Position numbers and translations under genes: made by a program. Positions 1 through 10,398 of a DNA stretch of 11,203 nt are shown piece by piece; position 1 is the first letter of the stretch; every line of letters begins with the position of its first letter. The notes beneath the pieces were generated by a model that worked only from the letters and a program-made list of their open reading frames with translations, was not told where the DNA came from and searched no databases. The DNA is from Acidaminococcaceae bacterium (GTDB lineage Bacteria > Bacillota > Negativicutes > Acidaminococcales > Acidaminococcaceae), in NCBI GenBank assembly GCA_024405585.1, contig JAKSOM010000023.1, positions 1 to 11,203 of the forward strand, in the 5' to 3' direction.

Positions 1-1643
1 TCATCTTCAATATTTGTTACCACCGCAATCTTAGGCTTGAACTTCAGAAAAGAACCGTCACTCTCATCCGCCTCTGCAACTACATAACTTCCATCACCCG
101 TAATCGCATTTCCCCCTAGTTGGGCCACATCCCCGCCTATAATGGCAGTCGCACCAATCCCTGATTTACTAGCAATAAATGCCAGCATAGATGTAGTAGT
201 AGTTTTCCCATGCGCTCCGGCCACAGTTACACCATCTTTCGCATTCACCATCCAACTCAAAATATTGCTACGATGAAAAATGGGTATACCTTTTTCCTTT
301 GCCGCCACTACCTCGGGATTATCGGCATGAATGGCAGTACTCAAAACCAGACAATCCGCCCCTTCAATATTCTCAGCGGCATGCCCAATCTTTACTTGCG
401 CCCCCTGCCCGATCAGGCGGGAAACAACCTCACCGGAATTCAGGTCACTGCCTTGAACCTTGTAGCCACGCTTCAACAGGACGCTGGCAATGGCACTCAT
501 CCCAGCTCCTCCTATACCTACGAAATGGAAATTTTTATATCCTTCAAACAGGCAGGCCATTACCCTATCTGCAATATCCCGTCCAGCCCTGGGTTTCGCT
601 TCCCTCAAAGCGGCCACATGCATATCCTGCAATACATCCGGACTATCCAACAATTCCTTAATTTGTTCAAACAAAATTCCCCCGTTCAAATCTTTATCCA
701 GGATAACCTTAGCAGCCCCCTTATTTTCCAATGCTCTGGCATTGAATTCCTGATGATTGCCGGTTGCAAAAGGAAAAGGAATCAAAATTGCCGGCAAGCC
801 CTTGGCCATAATTTCCGCCAAACCAATGGCTCCGGCACGACAGACCACAAAATCAGCTACTGCCAAAGCAGAAGGCATATTATGCAGATAGGGAACAACA
901 TGAATATTTCCATTGACTCCCCCCTTACCGCCTAATGCCTTAATATGATCCGTATAATTAGCCTCCCCAGTTGCATGCAAAACCTGAACATCGTTACGTT
1001 TACTCAACTGCAACTCCACGTCAACCATAGCACTATTGATACTCTTGGCACCACGGCTGCCACCGAAAACCAGAACGGTCTTCAGTCGAGGATCTAAGCG
1101 CAATTCCTGATAACTGCATTCCCTGTCTTGCAACAAAATTTCGCTTCGAATAGGATTACCGGTATACACCACCTCACCCTTGGCTTTGAAATACTTTGCC
1201 GCTTCTTCATAACCCAACAGAACTTTCTTCACCATCCTGGCCAAAATTCTGTTAGTCACACCGGGCAAAGCATTTTGTTCCTGGATGCAGGTGGAGATTC
1301 CCGCCTTAGCCGCCTGATAAACAACAGGACCACAAACATAACCTCCAGTACCAATCACCAAATCGGGTTTTTCAGTCGCAATAAGTTCCTTCGCCTGCTT
1401 CAATCCTTTGTGCAATAAATAAATGCTTCTGAGCGTATCAAAACTCAAACTTCTGCGAAAGCCCGCCACCTCAATATAGCGCATGTCATAACCGTAACGC
1501 GGCACAATATCCCGTTCCAATCCCGCTGCCGTTCCCACATAGATAATCTCAACATCAGGAACTATTTTCTTGATTTCATCTGCAATTGAAAGGGCCGGAT
1601 AAATATGCCCTCCCGTACCGCCGCCACTAATCAAAATCTTCAT
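1..1643 (-). CDS. murG-murC: MurG-MurC fusion: lipid II-forming GlcNAc transferase joined to UDP-MurNAc--L-alanine ligase (3' end off window)
   Basis: One open frame of 547 codons plus 2 nt runs from ATG at 1643 to the window edge without a stop. Residues 1-361 are a complete MurG, the membrane-associated enzyme that adds GlcNAc to lipid I. It shows the N-terminal loop GGGTGGHIYPAL (7-18), QEQNALPG (121-128), GGSRGAK (194-200), and the UDP-GlcNAc-site region CRAGAIGLAEI (268-278) with NHQEFNA (296-302). From about residue 368 the same frame is the N-terminal part of MurC, the cytoplasmic ligase that adds L-Ala to UDP-MurNAc. It shows HFVGIGGAGMSA (373-384), the ATP loop GAHGKTTTT (476-484) and EADESDGSF (524-532). 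I checked the frame codon by codon across the junction. The start overlaps the murD stop (ATGA). Met362 (558-560) could start a separate MurC, but there is no MurG stop and no well-spaced Shine-Dalgarno. The MurC C-terminus is outside the window. Confidence 0.93.
   Translation of the reverse strand, partial: MKILISGGGTGGHIYPALSIADEIKKIVPDVEIIYVGTAAGLERDIVPRYGYDMRYIEVAGFRRSLSFDTLRSIYLLHKGLKQAKELIATEKPDLVIGTGGYVCGPVVYQAAKAGISTCIQEQNALPGVTNRILARMVKKVLLGYEEAAKYFKAKGEVVYTGNPIRSEILLQDRECSYQELRLDPRLKTVLVFGGSRGAKSINSAMVDVELQLSKRNDVQVLHATGEANYTDHIKALGGKGGVNGNIHVVPYLHNMPSALAVADFVVCRAGAIGLAEIMAKGLPAILIPFPFATGNHQEFNARALENKGAAKVILDKDLNGGILFEQIKELLDSPDVLQDMHVAALREAKPRAGRDIADRVMACLFEGYKNFHFVGIGGAGMSAIASVLLKRGYKVQGSDLNSGEVVSRLIGQGAQVKIGHAAENIEGADCLVLSTAIHADNPEVVAAKEKGIPIFHRSNILSWMVNAKDGVTVAGAHGKTTTTSMLAFIASKSGIGATAIIGGDVAQLGGNAITGDGSYVVAEADESDGSFLKFKPKIAVVTNIED
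534..560 (-). other. MurG-MurC domain junction
   Basis: The MurG C-terminal helix (ADRVMACLFEG, residues 358-368) passes straight into the MurC N-terminal strand (YKNFHFVGIGG, 369-379). There is no stop codon, spacer or obvious linker. MurC proteins normally begin a few residues before this glycine loop, so each domain is essentially full length at the joint. An ATG at 558-560 is in frame and is the only plausible internal start. The run AGGG lies only about 2 nt before it, too close for a normal ribosome site. Confidence 0.85.
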
Positions 1644-2917
1644 AATGCTTGTACCAATTCCTTAAACTTTTTCCCCCGTTCTTCAAAACAACTGAACATG
1701 TCATAACTGCTACAGGCAGGACTCAACAGAACAACTTGGGGCTTCTTGGCAACTTTTCTGGCCAACGCCACCGCCTCATCATAGGAATCCACCAAATAGA
1801 TATTTTTAACACCTTCCGCTTTAGCTGCGGCTAAAAACCTTGACTTGGCTTCCCCCAGCAAAATCAAAACATCAACAAATTTTTTCGTTGTTCCCATAAA
1901 GTCACGCAAATCTGTTAATTTGTCATGTCCTCCCGCAATAAGTATCACATGCCCATCAGGAAATGCTTCCAACGCTTTCACCGCACTGTCCGTATTGGTG
2001 GCCTTGGAATCATTATAATACCTGACACCGTCCAAAGTGCGAACATATTCCAAGCGATGTTCCACCGGCTGAAAATTTTTGATTACCTTGGCCAAATCCG
2101 TTACCCTGCAGCCTGCCAGATAGGCAACAGCGATGGCCGCCAAAACATTTTCCTCGTTGTGGGGCCCAAAAATCTTCATATCTTTCACTGAACATACTAT
2201 CTCTTCCTTGCCGTCCCACGCCACAACAAAACTGCCGTCCCGGATAAATACACCTTCAGGCAATTCCATACGCCGACTAAAATAACACACCCTGCACCGC
2301 AAATCATAAGCCCAACTGCGAATATTGGCATCGTCGTAATTCAGTACGGCAAACTGGTTTTCCCTTTGCTGCAAACAAATGTTTCTCTTGGCCCGATAAT
2401 AATTCTCCAACGTGTGATGCCGCTCCAAATGGTCCGGGGTTAAATTCAAAACACAACTGATGGCGGGGGCAAAGTTTTGTACCGTTTCCAATTGGAAACT
2501 GCTCAATTCCGCCGCCACCCAGGCATCGGCGGATAATTCCTCTGTTTCCTTACTCAAACTCAGCCCGATATTGCCGGCCACTTTCACAGGCACACCCAAG
2601 GTCTTCAGCATCTCCCCCACCAAAGTTGTGGTGGTGGTTTTTCCGTTCGTACCGGTTATAGCTGCCATCCTGCCGGAACACCGTGCAAAAGCCACTTCAA
2701 TTTCCGGCACAACCTTAATTCCCCTACTTAAGGCCAACCGTACTTCCTCTTTTTCCGGCGAAACACCGGGAGAAAGCACAAGCAAATCAACCCCTTCAAC
2801 ACTTGTTGCAAAAGAGTTCATTGCATCCGTATAGACCAGCACATCATTCCCTGCTTTTTGCAGGACCTCAGCCACTCCCTTACCGCTGACACCTGCGCCA
2901 TAAACCAATACCTTCAT
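1640..2917 (-). CDS. murD: UDP-N-acetylmuramoyl-L-alanine--D-glutamate ligase MurD
   Basis: MurD is the cytoplasmic ligase that adds D-glutamate to UDP-MurNAc-L-Ala with ATP. The 425-residue product has the N-terminal Rossmann start VYGAGVSGKG (5-14), the ATP loop GTNGKTTTT (89-97), ELSSFQLE (137-144), NLTPDHLERH (158-167) and the lysine usually carbamylated in this family (Lys177 in RAKRNI). It also has EHRLEYV and NDSKATN of the C-terminal ligase domain. I chose the ATG at 2917 because MKVLVYGAG is the normal family start and GAGG precedes it. The longer frame back to 3025 only reads into mraY. It starts 11 nt after the mraY stop and its TGA overlaps the murG ATG, so translation is probably coupled. 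An ftsW gene often found next to murD is missing. Confidence 0.97.
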   Translation of the reverse strand: MKVLVYGAGVSGKGVAEVLQKAGNDVLVYTDAMNSFATSVEGVDLLVLSPGVSPEKEEVRLALSRGIKVVPEIEVAFARCSGRMAAITGTNGKTTTTTLVGEMLKTLGVPVKVAGNIGLSLSKETEELSADAWVAAELSSFQLETVQNFAPAISCVLNLTPDHLERHHTLENYYRAKRNICLQQRENQFAVLNYDDANIRSWAYDLRCRVCYFSRRMELPEGVFIRDGSFVVAWDGKEEIVCSVKDMKIFGPHNEENVLAAIAVAYLAGCRVTDLAKVIKNFQPVEHRLEYVRTLDGVRYYNDSKATNTDSAVKALEAFPDGHVILIAGGHDKLTDLRDFMGTTKKFVDVLILLGEAKSRFLAAAKAEGVKNIYLVDSYDEAVALARKVAKKPQVVLLSPACSSYDMFSCFEERGKKFKELVQAL

Positions 2918-2928
2918 ATCACCACGCC

Positions 2929-3897
2929 TCAAATCACAAATTTCAGTACCCACAAGCCAAAACTTACGGCTGCCAGCAGGCAACTTACCAGGGAGAACAC
3001 CTTCACAGTCAGCACCTCTCCCCAACCGCCCAACTCAAAATGATGATGGATGGGAGCCATACGAAAGATTCTTTTGCCATGCCGCAACTTGAAAGACCCC
3101 ACCTGCAAGATAACGCTCAATGCTTCCGCAACATATATTCCGCCCAAAACAATCAGCAACAACTCGCATTTCAAGAGCAGGGCCAAAGCCGCCACCGCAC
3201 CGCCCAGAGCCAAAGAACCGGTATCACCCATAAATACCTTGGCAGGATGCCGGTTATAAATCAAAAATCCCAACAAACTGCCAAACAGGGCAGCACTAAA
3301 CCCCATAAGGTCCGTCTTTCCGAGGGTATAGGCAAAAAAGCCGAACGTCAAAAACACAGGCAAGGACACCAAAGATACCAACCCATCCAAACCGTCCGTA
3401 AAATTCACCGCATTGGTCGTCCCCAAGAGCAAAGCGAGAACTATCAAGTAATAACCCCACCCCAGATCAAAGTAGATATTAAATCCGGGAACCCACAATT
3501 CAGTCGGGAAATTGGTCATAACCCCATACCAAATAAACCCCGCCGCCACCAATATCTGCAAGGCAAATTTCTGCTTCACATTCAAACCGAGATTACGTTT
3601 TTTAACAATCTTAATCCCATCATCCAAAGCCCCTATCACACCATGGGACAAAGTCAGAAAAAGCGCCACCTTGAGGGCCGACGTAAATTCGCCAAAAATT
3701 GCCACCGCCACCATAAGCCCCATCAAAATCATTACCCCGCCCATAGTTGGGGTTCCGGATTTCTGTTTATGACTTTCAGGACCGCACCCCCGCACGCTTT
3801 GACCAAATCTTAACTTATGCAACAAAGGAATAACGACAGGTCCCAATGCTCCGCAAACTGCGAAGGCAACCGCCCCCGTCCACATAACATTATTCAT
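2929..3897 (-). CDS. mraY: Phospho-N-acetylmuramoyl-pentapeptide transferase MraY
   Basis: MraY is the integral membrane enzyme that transfers phospho-MurNAc-pentapeptide to undecaprenyl phosphate, forming lipid I. The 322-residue protein is strongly hydrophobic, with about ten membrane segments. Family motifs are present: HKQKSGTPTMGG (43-54), the catalytic aspartate pair in GALDDGIKI (89-97), NFTDGLDGL (165-173), FMGDTGSLALGG (222-233, with the family's third key Asp at 225) and APIHHHFELGGWGE (281-294). The ATG at 3897 is preferred over a TTG one codon upstream. That ATG overlaps the original murF stop by 8 nt (ATGAATAA) and has only a poor ribosome site, so it probably relies on ribosomes finishing murF. 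This matters because murF carries an amber codon about 150 nt upstream. Confidence 0.96.
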   Translation of the reverse strand: MNNVMWTGAVAFAVCGALGPVVIPLLHKLRFGQSVRGCGPESHKQKSGTPTMGGVMILMGLMVAVAIFGEFTSALKVALFLTLSHGVIGALDDGIKIVKKRNLGLNVKQKFALQILVAAGFIWYGVMTNFPTELWVPGFNIYFDLGWGYYLIVLALLLGTTNAVNFTDGLDGLVSLVSLPVFLTFGFFAYTLGKTDLMGFSAALFGSLLGFLIYNRHPAKVFMGDTGSLALGGAVAALALLLKCELLLIVLGGIYVAEALSVILQVGSFKLRHGKRIFRMAPIHHHFELGGWGEVLTVKVFSLVSCLLAAVSFGLWVLKFVI

Positions 3898-5284
3898 CAA
3901 AATAACCCAAGACTTTATTCACTTCCATAGAATGACTACCCTTCAGAAGAACCACATCCCCTGAACGTACCACATGCATCAGACACTCATAAGCCTGTTT
4001 GACATTATCACAAAACTGAGCTTTTACCCCTGCTTTCTTTGCTGCCCACTAAATATTCCTCGCATTTTCTCCATAAGTGATAAGGTAATCCACACCTATA
4101 TCTTTACACATCAAGCCGATTTCTTCATGGGCCTTTTGGGCAAGATCTCCCAATTCCAGCATATCCGCCAAAATAGCAATACTGCGACAGCGATATTTCT
4201 TTTCCGAGCCATCCTTCACCATTTTCAAGGTCTCCAAAGCCGCCATCATGCTATGGGGATTAGCATTGTAACTGTCATCAATAAAAGTCACATCACCCCG
4301 CTTGACAATTTGCAACCTCCGTTCCGACAACTGTACACTGCCAAGTACATTGGCACTTGCTGCCATATCCACCCCGTAACATACCGCCATAGCAATTGCC
4401 GCCAAAACATTATACACGTTATGTATTCCTAAAAGTGGCATATGCACGCTAACCTTATGCCCGCTGATTCTCTCATGGCAAACAAAATCCGTGCCCTCAG
4501 AATGCATTACCAAATCCGTCGCATAGTAATCGTTACTGTCCTGCATACCAAAGTAAATCGGTTGGGCCAGACACTCCTCCCCCATCTTCCTTGTGTATAC
4601 ATTATCACCGTTCAGCACCGCATAACCGTCACTATTCAAACCTTCCAGAATTTCCCTCTTGGCATTAGCTATATTTTCACGGGACCCCAATATTTCTATG
4701 TGACTAACCCCCACATTGGTAATCAAAGCACTTTCAGGACGGGCAATATAACACAATTCCCGAATTTGATTCAATCCCCGCATACCCATTTCAACCACAG
4801 CGATTTCCGTATCATCCCGAATTTCCAAAATAGTTTTTGACAAACCAATTTCATTATTAAAATTGGCCTGTGTCTTAACCACCCTGTACTTTGCTCCCAA
4901 ACAATGGGCCAGAATATCCTTAGTGGAAGTTTTGCCGTTAGAACCGGTAATGCCAATAACTTTCAGCTTTTTCTTACTCTTACGGTAAGCGGCTGCCAAT
5001 GCCTGATAGGCCTTAAGAGTATCCTCCACCAGTAATTTTGCCACACCGTTCGGTACATCCATATCCTTGGCAATAACCACACCCTTGGCTCCGGACGCGA
5101 CGGCCTTACCCACAAAATCATGCCCGTCAAACTTTTCACCTGCCAAAGCAACAAACAAATCTCCAGGTTGGACATCCCTGGAATCAGTTGTTACCCGTCC
5201 GAAAAACACCTCTTCCTCCTGGTATCCCAAATCCAATTGATAATCCAGATAAAGATACCGTTTTACTTCATCAAGTGCTAACAT
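3890..5284 (-). CDS. murF: UDP-MurNAc-tripeptide--D-Ala-D-Ala ligase MurF, interrupted by an in-frame amber codon
   Basis: MurF adds D-Ala-D-Ala to the UDP-MurNAc-tripeptide, the last cytoplasmic precursor step. Codons 1-411 show the N-terminal domain (TTDSRDVQPGDLFVAL, 32-47), ATP loop GSNGKTSTK (114-122), ANFNNEIGLSK (140-150), EMGMRG (165-170), SERRLQIV and DDSYNANPHSM. Codon 412 is TAG (4049-4051). Beyond it the same frame continues for 52 codons with the classic MurF C-terminus, including SGDVVLLKGSHSME, and ends at TAA (3890-3892). Full length with the amber codon read would be 464 residues, normal for MurF. Stopping at TAG gives 411 residues lacking the end of the third domain, though the ATP site and central domain remain. 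The start overlaps the murE stop (ATGTTAG). The interruption could be a sequencing or assembly error, a real nonsense mutation or a suppressed codon; the sequence alone cannot decide. Confidence 0.9.
4049..4051 (-). other. In-frame TAG (amber) codon inside murF
   Basis: The codon follows GENARNI (405-411) and precedes WAAKKAGVKAQF. The frame stays open on both sides, with no frameshift and no second stop before the native TAA. Related MurF proteins usually have a small or charged residue near here, so a one-base change from GAG, CAG, AAG or another sense codon is enough to explain it. The base after TAG is T. Confidence 0.9.
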
Positions 5285-6753
5285 TTTTTCAAAAACTCCT
5301 CTGCAACTTTCTTGTCATCAAAATGAATTGTTCCCGTCTTCAAAATCTGATAATTCTCATGTCCCTTGCCCGCAATCAGCACCACGTCACCTTTTACAGC
5401 ATTTTGCAGAGCATAGCCAATTGCCTCCCTGCGGTCGGCAATACGCACATATTCCTTCCTGTCATCATCCAACGCCCCACAAATCTGATCCAAAATCTTT
5501 TCCGGATCCTCGGTTCTGGGATTATCGCTGGTCACCACCACATTATCCGCCAAAACACCCGCTATATGCCCCATGATGGGCCGCTTGGTATTATCCCTAT
5601 CACCGCCGCATCCGAATACCGCCCATAATTTGTTCTCCGTAATCTTCCGTGCCGTATTCAAAACATTTTCCAATCCGTCCGGAGTATGTGCATAATCCAC
5701 AACAACAGTAAAATCCTGGCCGCAATCCACCAATTGAAATCTGCCAGCAACCCCGACAAAAGCACATATTTCCCTCTCAATAATCTTAATGTCTATCCCC
5801 TCTGCCAACAAAGCCCCAACCGCACTCATTATGTTGTACACATTGAATGCACCGGTGATTTTGGTGTGCAGTTGCATAATTCCCTGGGGAGTCACCAATT
5901 GCACATCCATCCCCCTGGCAAAAATTTTAACTTCTTTCGGATAAATGTCATTGGTGTCCTGCATACCATAGATCAGAACAGGTGTTCCGGTCCTGGCCTT
6001 GATAACGGGGGAAGAAGCATCATCCATATTAAACACCGCAGTTTTATCAGTTTTTACGCCCTCACTCAAACCCTCAAACAAAATGCTTTTGGCGTCCCGA
6101 TAATTATCCATAGTCTTATGAAAGTCCAAATGATCCTGAGTAATGTTTGTCAGCACTGCACAATCGAACTCCACACCCGCCACCCGTTTCAAAGCCAAAG
6201 CATGACTGGAAACTTCCATCACACAATAGTCACAACCCTTCTCCACCATGGCAGCCAGAACCCTCTGCAAATCAATTACATCCGGAGTCGTATTATGGCT
6301 CACAATTACTTCGTCTCCCACCACCATATTTATGGTACCGACCAACCCGGCCTTGTGCCCTGCAACATTCAAAATCTTTTGTATGATATTGGTGGTTGTA
6401 GTTTTACCATTGGTTCCCGTCACACCTATCATCCGCAATTTTCGCCCCGGATAGTCAAAAAAATACGGAGCTATCACTTCCATGGCCTCCCTTGTGTCGG
6501 GAACTAAAACCACAGCCACTCCCTCCGGCAATTTCTTCGGCAAAGTATCCACTACAAGGGCCTTGGCCCCCTTCTTCACCGCCTGCTCCAAAAAAGAATG
6601 ACCGTCAACTGTGGCTCCCCTTAATGCAACAAAAAGTCCACCCGGTTGAACGGTCCTACTGTCAGCGGTTATGTCCGTGATACGCTGATTTATGTCGCCA
6701 TACAGTTCAAATTCCGATAAAGTCGACGTAATCTCCACAAGATGCTTTAACAT
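5278..6753 (-). CDS. murE: UDP-MurNAc-L-Ala-D-Glu--meso-diaminopimelate ligase MurE
   Basis: MurE adds the third stem-peptide residue to UDP-MurNAc-dipeptide in the cytoplasm. The 491-residue product has an N-terminal UDP-MurNAc domain (DSRTVQPGGLFVALRG, 31-46), the ATP loop GTNGKTTTT (113-121), HNTTPD (153-158), the likely carbamylated Lys222 in DAKSILFEG, and VDYAHTPDG (352-360). DNPR (410-413) is the motif established as marking meso-diaminopimelate enzymes, as opposed to lysine-adding ones, and GKGHE (462-466) supports it. The wall is therefore predicted to be meso-DAP type. The ATG follows AAGGGGAAG at good spacing and lies 15 nt after the ftsL stop, leaving no room for the ftsI/spoVD transpeptidase gene often found here. 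It ends with TAG, the only terminal TAG in the window, inside a 7-nt overlap with murF. Confidence 0.97.
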   Translation of the reverse strand: MLKHLVEITSTLSEFELYGDINQRITDITADSRTVQPGGLFVALRGATVDGHSFLEQAVKKGAKALVVDTLPKKLPEGVAVVLVPDTREAMEVIAPYFFDYPGRKLRMIGVTGTNGKTTTTNIIQKILNVAGHKAGLVGTINMVVGDEVIVSHNTTPDVIDLQRVLAAMVEKGCDYCVMEVSSHALALKRVAGVEFDCAVLTNITQDHLDFHKTMDNYRDAKSILFEGLSEGVKTDKTAVFNMDDASSPVIKARTGTPVLIYGMQDTNDIYPKEVKIFARGMDVQLVTPQGIMQLHTKITGAFNVYNIMSAVGALLAEGIDIKIIEREICAFVGVAGRFQLVDCGQDFTVVVDYAHTPDGLENVLNTARKITENKLWAVFGCGGDRDNTKRPIMGHIAGVLADNVVVTSDNPRTEDPEKILDQICGALDDDRKEYVRIADRREAIGYALQNAVKGDVVLIAGKGHENYQILKTGTIHFDDKKVAEEFLKKC

Positions 6754-6768
6754 ATCTTCCCCTTTTTA

Positions 6769-7332
6769 TCATTTTCCCAACACCCAAAATGTATCATTCA
6801 TTGATTTGGCGTGATACCGCTCAGCAATCGTCTTTGATTTGGAGGCATTCACATAAACATTATCCCTCGCTACAACCATACCTAATTTTGATGAGGCAAT
6901 TTCCCTGATTCTTTCAGGTCCCTTCAACTGTTCCACCGCTATCTGCATTTCACTAATTTCCCTTATCAGACGGGCTTCCTCATGCTGCATGGCAACCAGT
7001 TGCGTCTGTACCGCAACAGTCAAATTACCAACCACAACACAGGCAAAATAAGTGAGGGCAACAATCCCGAAACACATTGCAGAGGCCACCTTGAACAACT
7101 TCGCCCTATAATTCTGTCCGCCCCTGGGATAAACTTTTTTCTCCTCCCTGACTAAGGGTTTCTTAGCCCGTTTGAAGAAAGTCCACTTAAATTTCTTCTT
7201 TTTTACTACTTTTTGGGGGACAGAAACAACCTCGGTCTCCCGCTCTGCAACAGACCAGATATCTTCTGCCAAATTACCGTAACTGTAATTGGTGTCAAGA
7301 TTTTCATATTCAATTCTCCTGAACTGTCTCAT
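6769..7332 (-). CDS. ftsL: Cell division protein FtsL (septum formation initiator family)
   Basis: FtsL is a small bitopic divisome protein that pairs with an FtsB/DivIC partner through a periplasmic coiled coil. The 187-residue product has a long basic cytoplasmic tail (1-80, very lysine/arginine rich at 41-80), one membrane segment (about 81-106), a predicted coiled coil (about 107-137) and the family's post-coil motif GPERIREIASSKLGM (138-152). Identification rests on this architecture plus its position after rsmH; the family diverges too much for sequence recognition alone. The tail of about 80 residues makes it longer than common FtsL proteins of around 110-120. It starts 13 nt after rsmH with AGAGG upstream of the ATG. 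Confidence 0.88.
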   Translation of the reverse strand: MRQFRRIEYENLDTNYSYGNLAEDIWSVAERETEVVSVPQKVVKKKKFKWTFFKRAKKPLVREEKKVYPRGGQNYRAKLFKVASAMCFGIVALTYFACVVVGNLTVAVQTQLVAMQHEEARLIREISEMQIAVEQLKGPERIREIASSKLGMVVARDNVYVNASKSKTIAERYHAKSMNDTFWVLGK

Positions 7333-7345
7333 CGGATACTACCTC

Positions 7346-8275
7346 TCAAACTTTGATGCCAAACCTGAATCTGGCACTTCTGGCTCTTGAATTAACCGTA
7401 ATTTCCTCACTACTGGGAGTCATATTCCCCACATCCCTGAGAGATGGCTTTCGGCCACATACACAAGGCAGCCGAGGCGGGCAAATGCAACCCTTTTGCA
7501 ATTCCTGAAAAACTTTTTTCACTATTCTGTCTTCCAGGGAGTGAAAAGTAATGACACCGATACGTCCGCCCGGTTTCAACCTTGCCACTGCGGTCCGCAT
7601 GGTGTTATCCAAAATCTTCAACTCGTTATTGACCTCAATCCTAATGGCTTGAAAAGTCCGTTTTCCCGGATGCGGCCCCTCTTTTCTTGCCCCCTTTGGA
7701 ATTGCTTTTTTGATAATCTCTACTAACTCAAAAGTAGTGGTAATAGGCCTTTCTTTCCGTTCCCTGACGATAAACTGGGCAATGCGTCTGGCCCAACGTT
7801 CTTCCCCGTAATTCCAAATAATCTCTGCCAAATCATCTTCGCTGTAACTGTTAACCACCTGATAAGCGGAAAATTCTCCGTTTCTGTCCATCCGCATATC
7901 AAGAGGACCGTCCTGCTTGTAACTAAACCCCCGTTCCGCATTATCAAGCTGATAACTGGAAACACCCAAATCAAAGAAAATGCCGTCAACCTGAACAATA
8001 TTCAAACCGTCCAAAACCCCGTCAAGATTTTTGAAATTATCACGGATAACCTCTATCCTGCAAGGGAACTGTCCTACCAACCGCTCTTCTGCAGTCCGAA
8101 CTGCGTCACCATCCCGGTCCATACCCACCAAAGTGCCCTGAGCATTCAATTTATCTGCAATGGCCTGACTGTGACCGGCCCCGCCTAAAGTGCAATCTAC
8201 ATATGTCCCCTCAGGATTCACAACCAGAAAATCCGCACATTCCTGTCTAAGAATGCTCACATGCCGAAATTCCAT
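7346..8275 (-). CDS. rsmH: 16S rRNA (cytosine(1402)-N(4))-methyltransferase RsmH
   Basis: RsmH (MraW) uses S-adenosylmethionine to methylate N4 of C1402 in the decoding centre of 16S rRNA. The 309-residue protein begins MEFRHVSILRQE and shows the SAM-binding loop DCTLGGAGHS (27-36), FFDLGVSSYQLD (100-111), DGPLDMRMD (122-130), RTFQAIRIEVNNEL and the C-terminal ITFHSLEDRIVK, all typical of the family. Its length is normal. I took the ATG at 8275, two bases after the mraZ TGA; a TTG two codons upstream overlaps mraZ and is less likely. GGGA lies about 6 nt before the ATG, and expression is probably coupled to mraZ. Confidence 0.97.
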   Translation of the reverse strand: MEFRHVSILRQECADFLVVNPEGTYVDCTLGGAGHSQAIADKLNAQGTLVGMDRDGDAVRTAEERLVGQFPCRIEVIRDNFKNLDGVLDGLNIVQVDGIFFDLGVSSYQLDNAERGFSYKQDGPLDMRMDRNGEFSAYQVVNSYSEDDLAEIIWNYGEERWARRIAQFIVRERKERPITTTFELVEIIKKAIPKGARKEGPHPGKRTFQAIRIEVNNELKILDNTMRTAVARLKPGGRIGVITFHSLEDRIVKKVFQELQKGCICPPRLPCVCGRKPSLRDVGNMTPSSEEITVNSRARSARFRFGIKV

Positions 8276-8277
8276 CG

Positions 8278-8709
8278 TCAAATCCCAAAATCCTTCATCT
8301 GTTCTGCCAGATCCTCGATATTTTCAATCAAATTCTCCTGCTTGTTCTTCCAAACCTCTGCATTCCAAATCTCGGCGTGAGTTCCTGCCCCGGCAATAAC
8401 TATATCTTTATCCAGTTTCGCATAATCTCGCAAATTTTGCGGCAAAAGCACGCGGCCCTGCTTGTCGTAATCACTGTCCGTCGCTCCACTTACAAAGAAA
8501 CGGACAAAATCACGGGCATTCCTGTTGCTCAAAGGCAGAGCTGCGAGCTTTGCATCAAGGATCTTCCACTGCTCCGTACTATACATGTACAAACAGCCGT
8601 CCAACCCCTTGGTGATAACAAAACCGTCGTGCAAGGCATCACGAAGTTTCATGGGCATAATGAAACGACCCTTGTCATCTACCGTATGTGCATATTCACC
8701 CAACAACAT
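8278..8709 (-). CDS. mraZ: Transcriptional regulator MraZ
   Basis: MraZ is a DNA-binding protein of the AbrB-like swapped-hairpin fold that controls the dcw operon, usually as an autorepressor in Gram-negative models. The 143-residue product has the two tandem SpoVT/AbrB-like half-domains with their DxxxR signatures, D11-R15 (in VDDKGRFIMP) and D82-R86 (in YDKQGRVLLP). The first half starts MLLGEYAHTVDDKGR, the standard family start. GGAGG lies 7 nt before the ATG and is part of the third operator repeat, so MraZ binding would overlap the promoter-proximal transcribed region. It is the first gene of the operon. Confidence 0.97.
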   Translation of the reverse strand: MLLGEYAHTVDDKGRFIMPMKLRDALHDGFVITKGLDGCLYMYSTEQWKILDAKLAALPLSNRNARDFVRFFVSGATDSDYDKQGRVLLPQNLRDYAKLDKDIVIAGAGTHAEIWNAEVWKNKQENLIENIEDLAEQMKDFGI

Positions 8710-8719
8710 AGAATCGCCT

Positions 8720-8746
8720 CCATTTCACTCCACTTATCACCACTTT
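8720..8746 (-). promoter_or_regulatory. MraZ operator: three 10-bp-spaced direct repeats
   Basis: Read on the minus strand, three heptamers AAAGTGG (8746-8740), TAAGTGG (8736-8730) and GAAATGG (8726-8720) are separated by exactly 3 nt each. This matches the known MraZ target plan of G-rich repeats with a 10-bp period upstream of mraZ. They sit between the -10 box and the mraZ start, and the last repeat runs into the ribosome site. A fourth AGTGG lies in the promoter spacer, 21 bp upstream. MraZ binding here is inferred from family knowledge. Confidence 0.85.
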
Positions 8747-8751
8747 GCTAC

Positions 8752-8780
8752 ATTATAAAACCACTATTTCCCCTTGTCAA
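8752..8780 (-). promoter_or_regulatory. Sigma-A/sigma70 promoter of the dcw operon
   Basis: On the minus strand a perfect -35 TTGACA (8780-8775) and a perfect -10 TATAAT (8757-8752) are separated by exactly 17 nt. Transcription should start near 8745, within the first MraZ repeat, giving a short leader of roughly 35 nt before mraZ. No other comparably strong promoter was noticed within the downstream genes. Confidence 0.88.
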
Positions 8781-8811
8781 GCAAATTTTAACTTTTTCCC
8801 CACGATTAGCA

Positions 8812-8829
8812 AAACATTACAAACATTAC
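8812..8829. repeat. 9-bp tandem duplication upstream of the dcw promoter
   Basis: The plus strand holds AAACATTAC twice in direct succession (8812-8820 and 8821-8829). It lies about 30-50 bp upstream of the -35 box in an A/T-rich stretch. It could be an activator site, an UP-like element or chance; nothing in the sequence settles this. Confidence 0.4.
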
Positions 8830-8842
8830 ACTTTTCAAGCAA

Positions 8843-8874
8843 AAACCCCGACTTTCATTTGAAAATCGGGGTTT
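8843..8874 (-). terminator. Rho-independent terminator after uvrC
   Basis: On the minus strand a 14-bp stem opens with AAACCCCGA and closes with TCGGGGTTT, around a 4-nt AAAT loop with one G-T wobble. It is followed by TT and a short mixed tract, so the T run reading out of the stem totals five. It lies about 45 nt past the uvrC stop and separates uvrC from the dcw promoter. The symmetric stem could also form on the plus strand, but no plus-strand gene needs it. Confidence 0.8.
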
Positions 8875-8900
8875 CCCATCCTTTTTATGCCATGTTCTGT

Positions 8901-8930
8901 ATCCTTCATTCTTCATTCCTCATCCTTCAT
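8901..8930. repeat. Short CTTCAT-rich imperfect repeats over the uvrC stop
   Basis: ATCCTTCAT occurs at 8901-8909 and 8922-8930, with further CTTCATTC-like units between. The stretch spans the uvrC TGA (8920-8922). It looks like a small local duplication of simple sequence; no function is proposed. Confidence 0.35.
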
Positions 8931-10398
8931 AACGATGAAAAAATTCAAACAAATTTTCTGCCGCCAACCGGTTCATACCCTCCAACCCGGCCAATTCATC
9001 GAAAGTAGCAGCATGCATCTCCTCCAATGTTTTGTACCGCTTCCACAAGGCCGCTCTCCGCTTAGGCCCGATACCCTCCACATGGTCCAAAACACTCACC
9101 ATGTTCCGTTTGGAGCGCAACTGCCTGTGAAAAGTAATAGCAAAACGATGGGCTTCATTGCGAATCCGTTGAATAAGATGCAGGGCAGCACTCTCACGGG
9201 GCAAATAAATGCTCTCATTCTCACCTGGCTTGAAAATCTCTTCATTCCTCTCCGCCAGACCAACCACCGGCAAATCATCCAATCCCAAGCCTTTGAGCAC
9301 TCTCAAGGCACTGGAAAGCTGACCCTTGCCTCCATCTATAACTACCAAATCGGGCAAATCCTCATAATCCTTGTAACGGCGGTACACCACCTCCTGCATG
9401 GACTTGAAATCATCCGGTTTTCCCTCCGCACTGCGAATCTTATATTTGCGATAATCTTTCTTGGAAGGTGTACCGTCACGAAAAACCACCATGCTGGCCA
9501 CCGTCTCAGCCCCCTGAGTATGACTGATGTCAAAGCAATCCATCCGTCCCAACTTCTTCCCCACACCCAAAATCTGTTGTAATTCTGTCGCAGCCGTCAC
9601 ATCATCCTTCAACTGCAAATTCTCCAGCCGGGTACGCTCAAGCATCAATTTTTGTGCCCGTCCAACCACCGCCTTATGGCTTTCGTTCAAGCGGGTCAAT
9701 GCATTCAACAAATCCCGATAGCTGGCCGCCTCCTCAAACCTTGTATCCTCCGCTGCAGCCAGCATTCTCTTGGTCAGTTGTTCCTCCAAATCCTTGGTCC
9801 GTCCTGCTAAAATCATCAGCACACATTCCACCCTCCGAACATACTCATCCTTGGAAATAAAGCCAGCACAGGGGCCTGGACACCTCTTGATATGGTAATT
9901 CAGGCAAGGCCTAGTCCCCATCTTCGCACAAGTACGTAAAGGAAACAACTTCTTGAGCAACCGCAACATCACCTGCATAGAACCTACGTCTGTATAGGGG
10001 CCGAAATACTTGGCCCCATCTCTCTGCTGACGCCGAGTTTGAAACACCCGAGGATACTCATCCTGCAAAGTAACCTTAATGCATGGATAGGACTTGTCAT
10101 CCTTCAAGCTGATGTTATAACGAGGCCGGAACTTCTTAATCAGGTTGCATTCCAACACCAGTGCCTCCGCCTCGCTCTGGCAAAGGATAAATTCCAAATC
10201 CTCAATCCTCTCCACCATGGAACGCACCTTCACACTATGAGTACTGAGATTACGAAAATAACTCCGTACCCGATTTTTCAAATTCACTGCCTTACCCACA
10301 TAAATAACCTTGCCCTCACCGTCCCGCATTAGATAAACCCCGGGCTGCTCCGGCAAAACAGCGATATTCTGTTGCAGTTTTTCACCAAGTTCCATCAT
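8920..10398 (-). CDS. uvrC: Excinuclease ABC subunit C (short form)
   Basis: UvrC makes both incisions around DNA lesions marked by UvrAB. The 492-residue product has an N-terminal GIY-YIG nuclease (GVYLM 20-24, VIYVG 32-36, catalytic-type Glu in SEAEAL 75-80), four cysteines at 157, 165, 173 and 177 in the pattern known to bind an iron-sulfur cluster in UvrC, a UVR motif that binds UvrB (about 203-238), and an RNase H-like nuclease with Asp290 (CFDISH), Asp355 (VVIDGGKGQ) and His417 (EAHRFA). It ends in paired helix-hairpin-helix motifs (EGIGPKRR, 441-448). Compared with the usual ~600 residues, about 95 are missing between the UVR motif and AVVGRAQK (243-250), without a frameshift. A longer frame to 10548 crosses a terminator and is rejected; ATG at 10404, 10398 or 10395 are all possible starts and none has a clear Shine-Dalgarno. 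Confidence 0.95.
   Translation of the reverse strand: MMELGEKLQQNIAVLPEQPGVYLMRDGEGKVIYVGKAVNLKNRVRSYFRNLSTHSVKVRSMVERIEDLEFILCQSEAEALVLECNLIKKFRPRYNISLKDDKSYPCIKVTLQDEYPRVFQTRRQQRDGAKYFGPYTDVGSMQVMLRLLKKLFPLRTCAKMGTRPCLNYHIKRCPGPCAGFISKDEYVRRVECVLMILAGRTKDLEEQLTKRMLAAAEDTRFEEAASYRDLLNALTRLNESHKAVVGRAQKLMLERTRLENLQLKDDVTAATELQQILGVGKKLGRMDCFDISHTQGAETVASMVVFRDGTPSKKDYRKYKIRSAEGKPDDFKSMQEVVYRRYKDYEDLPDLVVIDGGKGQLSSALRVLKGLGLDDLPVVGLAERNEEIFKPGENESIYLPRESAALHLIQRIRNEAHRFAITFHRQLRSKRNMVSVLDHVEGIGPKRRAALWKRYKTLEEMHAATFDELAGLEGMNRLAAENLFEFFHRYEG

Follow-up and report, generated by a model that had tools for sequence, protein, structure and literature searches.

The TAG that interrupts murF is very probably a wrong base in the consensus, introduced by an error of base calling, assembly, or strain mixing; if so, the organism itself would carry a normal, unbroken murF of 464 codons within its dcw operon. 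Error is favored because essential genes of the same bin are broken in several ways, and it is favored over readthrough of UAG because readthrough cannot explain a TGA, a frameshift, or a scrambled stretch. It is implausible that one cell would have murF, dnaX, nrdD, infB, and fabD disrupted at once, and the bin is probably thinly covered. As an artefact, the stop has little consequence beyond a warning about in-frame stops in fragmentary bins, where a bin-wide look is needed before recoding is claimed from stops in essential genes.

The window is the whole of contig C146 (11,203 bases) of a metagenome bin that totals 1,194,912 bases over 271 contigs (completeness 80.87%, contamination 4.84%) and whose named neighbors in a protein search are Phascolarctobacterium and Acidaminococcaceae bins. 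Its minus strand encodes mraZ, rsmH, an ftsL-like gene, murE, murF, mraY, murD, and a murG-murC reading frame that runs off the contig; uvrC and others lie upstream (outside the genes submitted to Pfam, these are the names we presume to apply). The murF frame runs from 5284 to 3893 on the minus strand with a single stop, the TAG at codon 412 (Table 1). Codons 413-464 read on as MurF (SGDVVLLKGSHSMEVNKVLGYFDE) and finish at a TAA (3890-3892) that lies where murF overlaps the start of mraY. The sequence-only reading, which had reported an amber codon followed by 52 MurF-like codons and a native TAA overlapping mraY, is thereby confirmed on both points. All three Mur ligase domains are matched in murF (Pfam PF01225, PF08245, and PF02875), and the TAG cuts Mur_ligase_C (PF02875) to profile positions 1-80 of 127, of which the full-length protein P0002, described below, covers 1-127. 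Because the mraY ATG overlaps the murF end, a premature stop in murF could also uncouple translation of mraY.

Table 1. Positions of the murF stop, its neighbors, and the other features of the bin discussed in the text (window positions unless a contig or locus is named)
Feature	Position	Strand	Remark
In-frame TAG, codon 412 of murF	4049..4051	-	
murF 5' part, 411 codons + TAG	4049..5284	-	N-terminal, middle, and start of C-terminal Mur ligase domain
murF 3' remainder, 52 codons + TAA	3890..4048	-	Conserved
murE	5278..6753	-	Ends at TAG 5278-5280, overlapping murF ATG
mraY	2929..3897	-	ATG 3897-3895 overlaps murF end
dnaX TAG	C1:8000-8002		
nrdD TAG	C46:11801-11803		
glnN TAGs	C228:7796-7798 and 7745-7747		
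glnN, type III glutamine synthetase	L150 (G000:C228) 7706-9583	-	Two TAGs 17 codons apart
infB frameshift and DHH-family TGA	L262 (G000:C221) 4260-4380 and 6002		
fabD scrambled stretch	L150 (G000:C228) 2400-2600		
Cluster of radical SAM (SPASM), MurF-like, MurE-like, and radical SAM genes	L038 (G000:C212) 217-6793		

An artefact calls for a near-identical intact copy of the gene elsewhere, and a search of about 5.8 billion proteins yields one. P0002 (464 aa, full length; its source field reads "-", so that its origin is unstated) is 99% identical to the murF product of the window, with 5 differences in 464 positions, among them a Tyr facing the stop. The next five proteins (P0003-P0007, 74-89% identical) likewise have Tyr at the stop position. 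A full-length murF without a stop is found in 39 of the 40 relatives searched, among the matches listed, while G028 gives a weak murF match alone (4.8e-9). The comparison of codon 412 across related genomes, suggested by the sequence-only reading, thus shows no stop in the 39 relatives with a listed full-length match, nor in P0002. The column itself is variable: over 29 relatives' loci, taken from a genome search and including both same-genus genomes, it holds 11 Ser, 8 Ala, 4 Tyr, 2 Gly, 2 Val, 1 Ile, and 1 Gln.

The same artefact should leave mixed breaks across essential genes of one assembly, and these were found. The bin-wide survey for stops compared 57 of the 271 contigs (617,844 bases) with the ORFs of a genome of the same genus, G002, over 112,309 aligned codons. 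Within sense genes it shows TAG in murF, dnaX (C1), nrdD (C46), and glnN (C228, two near the gene end), and TGA within a DHH-family gene on C221. On the same contig, infB shifts frame where 14 G002 residues face 19 bases, so that sequence is missing. On C228, some 30 residues of fabD are unrecognizable in any of three frames, in a stretch that contains a TAA. (Except for dnaX, the names of the broken genes are our presumed assignments.) The dnaX gene is intact in all 38 other genomes with a match, and a stop-free homolog 97% identical to it occurs in the protein collection; glnN is intact in 37 of 37, and nrdD in seven of eight relatives; the remaining match is distant and contains both a TGA and a TAA.

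The survey list for the bin had 10 rows before any were dropped. L194:184 precedes the start of a 148-codon ORF, L145:7937 is a TAG facing Tyr but antisense, judged by eye, to a ribosomal-protein-like ORF, and at L153:12867 a 412-codon frame on the opposite strand scores higher; these three were dropped. The fabD TAA was entered as a scrambled stretch rather than a stop, and a second frameshift-like row (the L236 query on L189) was left out, its two pieces sharing one frame. In the reverse control, G002 shows 23 rows with in-frame stops and 2 frameshift-like ones. In 19 of those 23, the ORF that spans the position and matches best lies in another frame, which makes them antisense or wrong-frame matches; L180:11644, L180:11671, and L175:7034 resemble gene edges by eye. 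No clear sense-gene stop was seen in G002, where the reading of these last three rows is tentative and L209:5925 and the two frameshift-like rows are left over from the 23 and 2.

If the five to six stops counted in the survey are single-base errors, the implied error rate is 4-5 per 10,000 bases. Deviations at invariant columns number 0 of 66 in murF, 0 of 96 in dnaX, 6 of 195 in glnN, and 2 of 282 in nrdD, where fewer than one would be expected at that rate (a hand estimate). The corresponding figures are 1 of 67, 0 of 96, 2 of 191, and 0 of 280 in G002, and 5 of 71 (murF) and 2 of 98 (dnaX) in G001. Error does not fully account for the pair of TAGs in glnN or for the mild excess of Tyr columns described below. 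The glnN pair is hard to explain by independent rare errors and could be true C-terminal decay.

The study of Cooley and Wright (2024, PMC11017572) attributes many false internal stops and frameshifts to assembly errors, with low coverage contributing, and links spurious pseudogenes to coverage, platform, and assembler. The spurious internal-stop pseudogenes it describes are stops and frameshifts in genes intact in near-identical genomes, as here. That work drew on public assemblies together with read data, whereas the present analysis covers the consensus sequence. No paper tying premature stops in bins to low coverage and sequencing error came up in a literature search.

That the sampled strain has a real and recent nonsense mutation in murF, or that the consensus picked up a minority allele, is unlikely. 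Such a change would fit a gene in which one codon alone differs, with the frame and the downstream sequence conserved and a near-identical intact copy in existence. It would also leave a MurF of 411 residues, lacking part of the C-terminal ligase domain, and the cell would have to survive by leaky readthrough or as part of a mixed population; several other essential genes of the bin are, moreover, broken too, and in differing ways. The sequence-only reading had proposed three explanations for the TAG: very recent mutation, sequence error, and translation by a suppressor or reassigned tRNA. The mixed breaks in the bin support the second of these, and the third fares badly.

That third explanation would have UAG read in part as an amino acid, most likely Tyr, by a suppressor tRNA or through weak termination, and we consider it very improbable, along with its corollary that murF, dnaX, glnN, and nrdD all yield full-length proteins. 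Amber suppression by a suppressor tRNA, like pyrrolysine insertion, is seen as TAG inside otherwise intact genes. The bin resembles such systems in having in-frame TAG in otherwise intact genes, and the sense genes sampled contain five in-frame TAGs against one TGA, with TAA solely inside the scrambled fabD stretch. Unlike them, it shows no CUA-anticodon tRNA among its 16 tRNAs and, in a PF01409 search of the incomplete genome, no PylS (the hits were a strong PheS-like one and a weak one). Searches for that tRNA and for PylS, both among the checks advised by the sequence-only reading, came back empty in an incomplete bin. Many isoacceptors are missing as well, and because the bin has just 16 tRNAs, the absent CUA tRNA proves little. 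Of the 24 ABC_tran matches found in the bin, none contains a stop.

There is also evidence that UAG still terminates. An RF1-type gene is intact (350 codons, contig C250), with PET and GGQ stretches that we take to be release-factor motifs of the RF1 type; contig C24 has an RF2-type ORF of 364 codons. Among 281 gene ends supported by a G002 homolog (57 contigs, at least 50% identity, at least 120 aligned residues), 123 are TGA, 107 TAA, and 51 TAG. A looser, earlier count over 37 contigs gave 105 TGA, 93 TAA, and 43 TAG in 241 ends, the last a larger share than the 27 of 251 for the matching G002 queries and a point against error. The terminal TAG of murE is apparently ordinary stop use within murF's own operon.

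The prevalence of TAG is in line with codon usage. Because 55% of the single changes that create a stop at this codon usage give TAG (32% TAA, 13% TGA), its presence in four of the five stop-carrying genes is unremarkable (P = 0.26). Readthrough as Tyr draws some support from the three TAGs of five that fall in Tyr or Tyr/Phe columns (P = 0.043; by gene, 2 of 4, P = 0.15), Tyr codons being the expected source of 18% of TAGs. The dnaX column has 26 Tyr and 3 His in 29 relatives, and the first glnN column 19 Tyr and 10 Phe. Against this, two TAGs lie in Leu or Leu/Ile columns: 26 Leu, 2 Val, and 1 Ile at the second glnN position, and 3 Leu, 3 Ile, 1 Met, and 1 Thr in nrdD. Because the columns split in this way, no single reassigned amino acid fits. 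Tyr codons and one Leu codon are each a single step from TAG, and of the bin's 3,477 codons aligned to Tyr, 3 are TAG versus 2,873 TAT or TAC.

The possibility that an RF1-bearing lineage of Negativicutes reads UAG inefficiently as Tyr, or as a mix of Tyr and Leu, in a few essential genes is accordingly slim in our estimation. Were the TAGs genuine and translated, this would be a bacterium using UAG as both stop and sense in core genes, which would be very surprising; to our knowledge, partial amber suppression as a fixed trait has no precedent in bacteria. TAG recoding was pursued as a candidate after the TAGs in dnaX and glnN, and larger samples added nrdD alone, together with the TGA, the frameshift, and the scrambled stretch. 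It was set aside in view of a TAG share that matches codon usage and columns that disagree.

Stop-codon reassignment has been screened for in bacteria with Codetta, and the paper describing it (PMC8629427) relates that some reassignments were first noticed through in-frame stops in critical genes, as in this bin. A reassigned codon aligns mainly to one amino acid, whereas the TAG columns here disagree; the bin departs from reassignment, too, in retaining its RF1-type gene and ending genes with TAG. For yeasts, the same paper traces some of the seeming recodings of stop codons to pseudogenes with in-frame stops, which it says come about mainly through single transitions (PMC8629427). Here, the one-step route to TAG from a Tyr or Leu column is a transversion, and finding none of the five to be a transition has P = 0.40, 0.18, and 0.05 at a transition bias of 1, 2, and 4, respectively. 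Transversions weakly suggest sequence error rather than ordinary decay.

The sequence-only reading also described murF as normally single-copy, which needs qualifying: contig C212 contains a second MurF-like gene, encoding a 434-aa protein, apparently as part of an accessory pathway and with no sign that it takes over from MurF. The protein is 35% and 38% identical to the murF product in two stretches. At E 1e-40 it has a match in one of the 40 relatives, G030, at that genome's ordinary murF. Its own relatives form a small group without the N-terminal Mur ligase match: among the 120 matches listed, 18 are 48-96% identical and the rest fall to 39% or below, apart from one short stretch at 41%. 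The cluster possibly serves a natural-product or cell-wall modification pathway. That this protein substitutes for a dispensable MurF, leaving murF to decay, is hardly credible: it adjoins a 492-aa MurE-like protein, but it has no N-terminal Mur_ligase Pfam match, shares with its neighbor a position between two radical-SAM genes, matches nothing at E 1e-40 in either genome of the same genus, lies on what may be a contaminant contig, and is accompanied by a murF whose remainder shows no decay.

The dcw cluster (window 1-8709, minus strand) has some features of its own. Between the ftsL-like gene and murE it lacks an ftsI-like ORF, and between murD and murG it lacks ftsW; contig C68 carries two FtsW/RodA family genes. 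A full-text literature search for "MurG-MurC fusion" found no paper. Separate murG and murC ORFs occur in all 52 scanned loci with both motifs, a scan whose motif missed the G002 fusion and may miss others. In the window, murG and murC form one continuous reading frame (3-1643, minus strand), which the contig end cuts at 547 codons. The frame is complete at L058:9573-12041 and L172:16303-18771; it has 822 codons in G002, and a frame of 824 codons is also present in G001.
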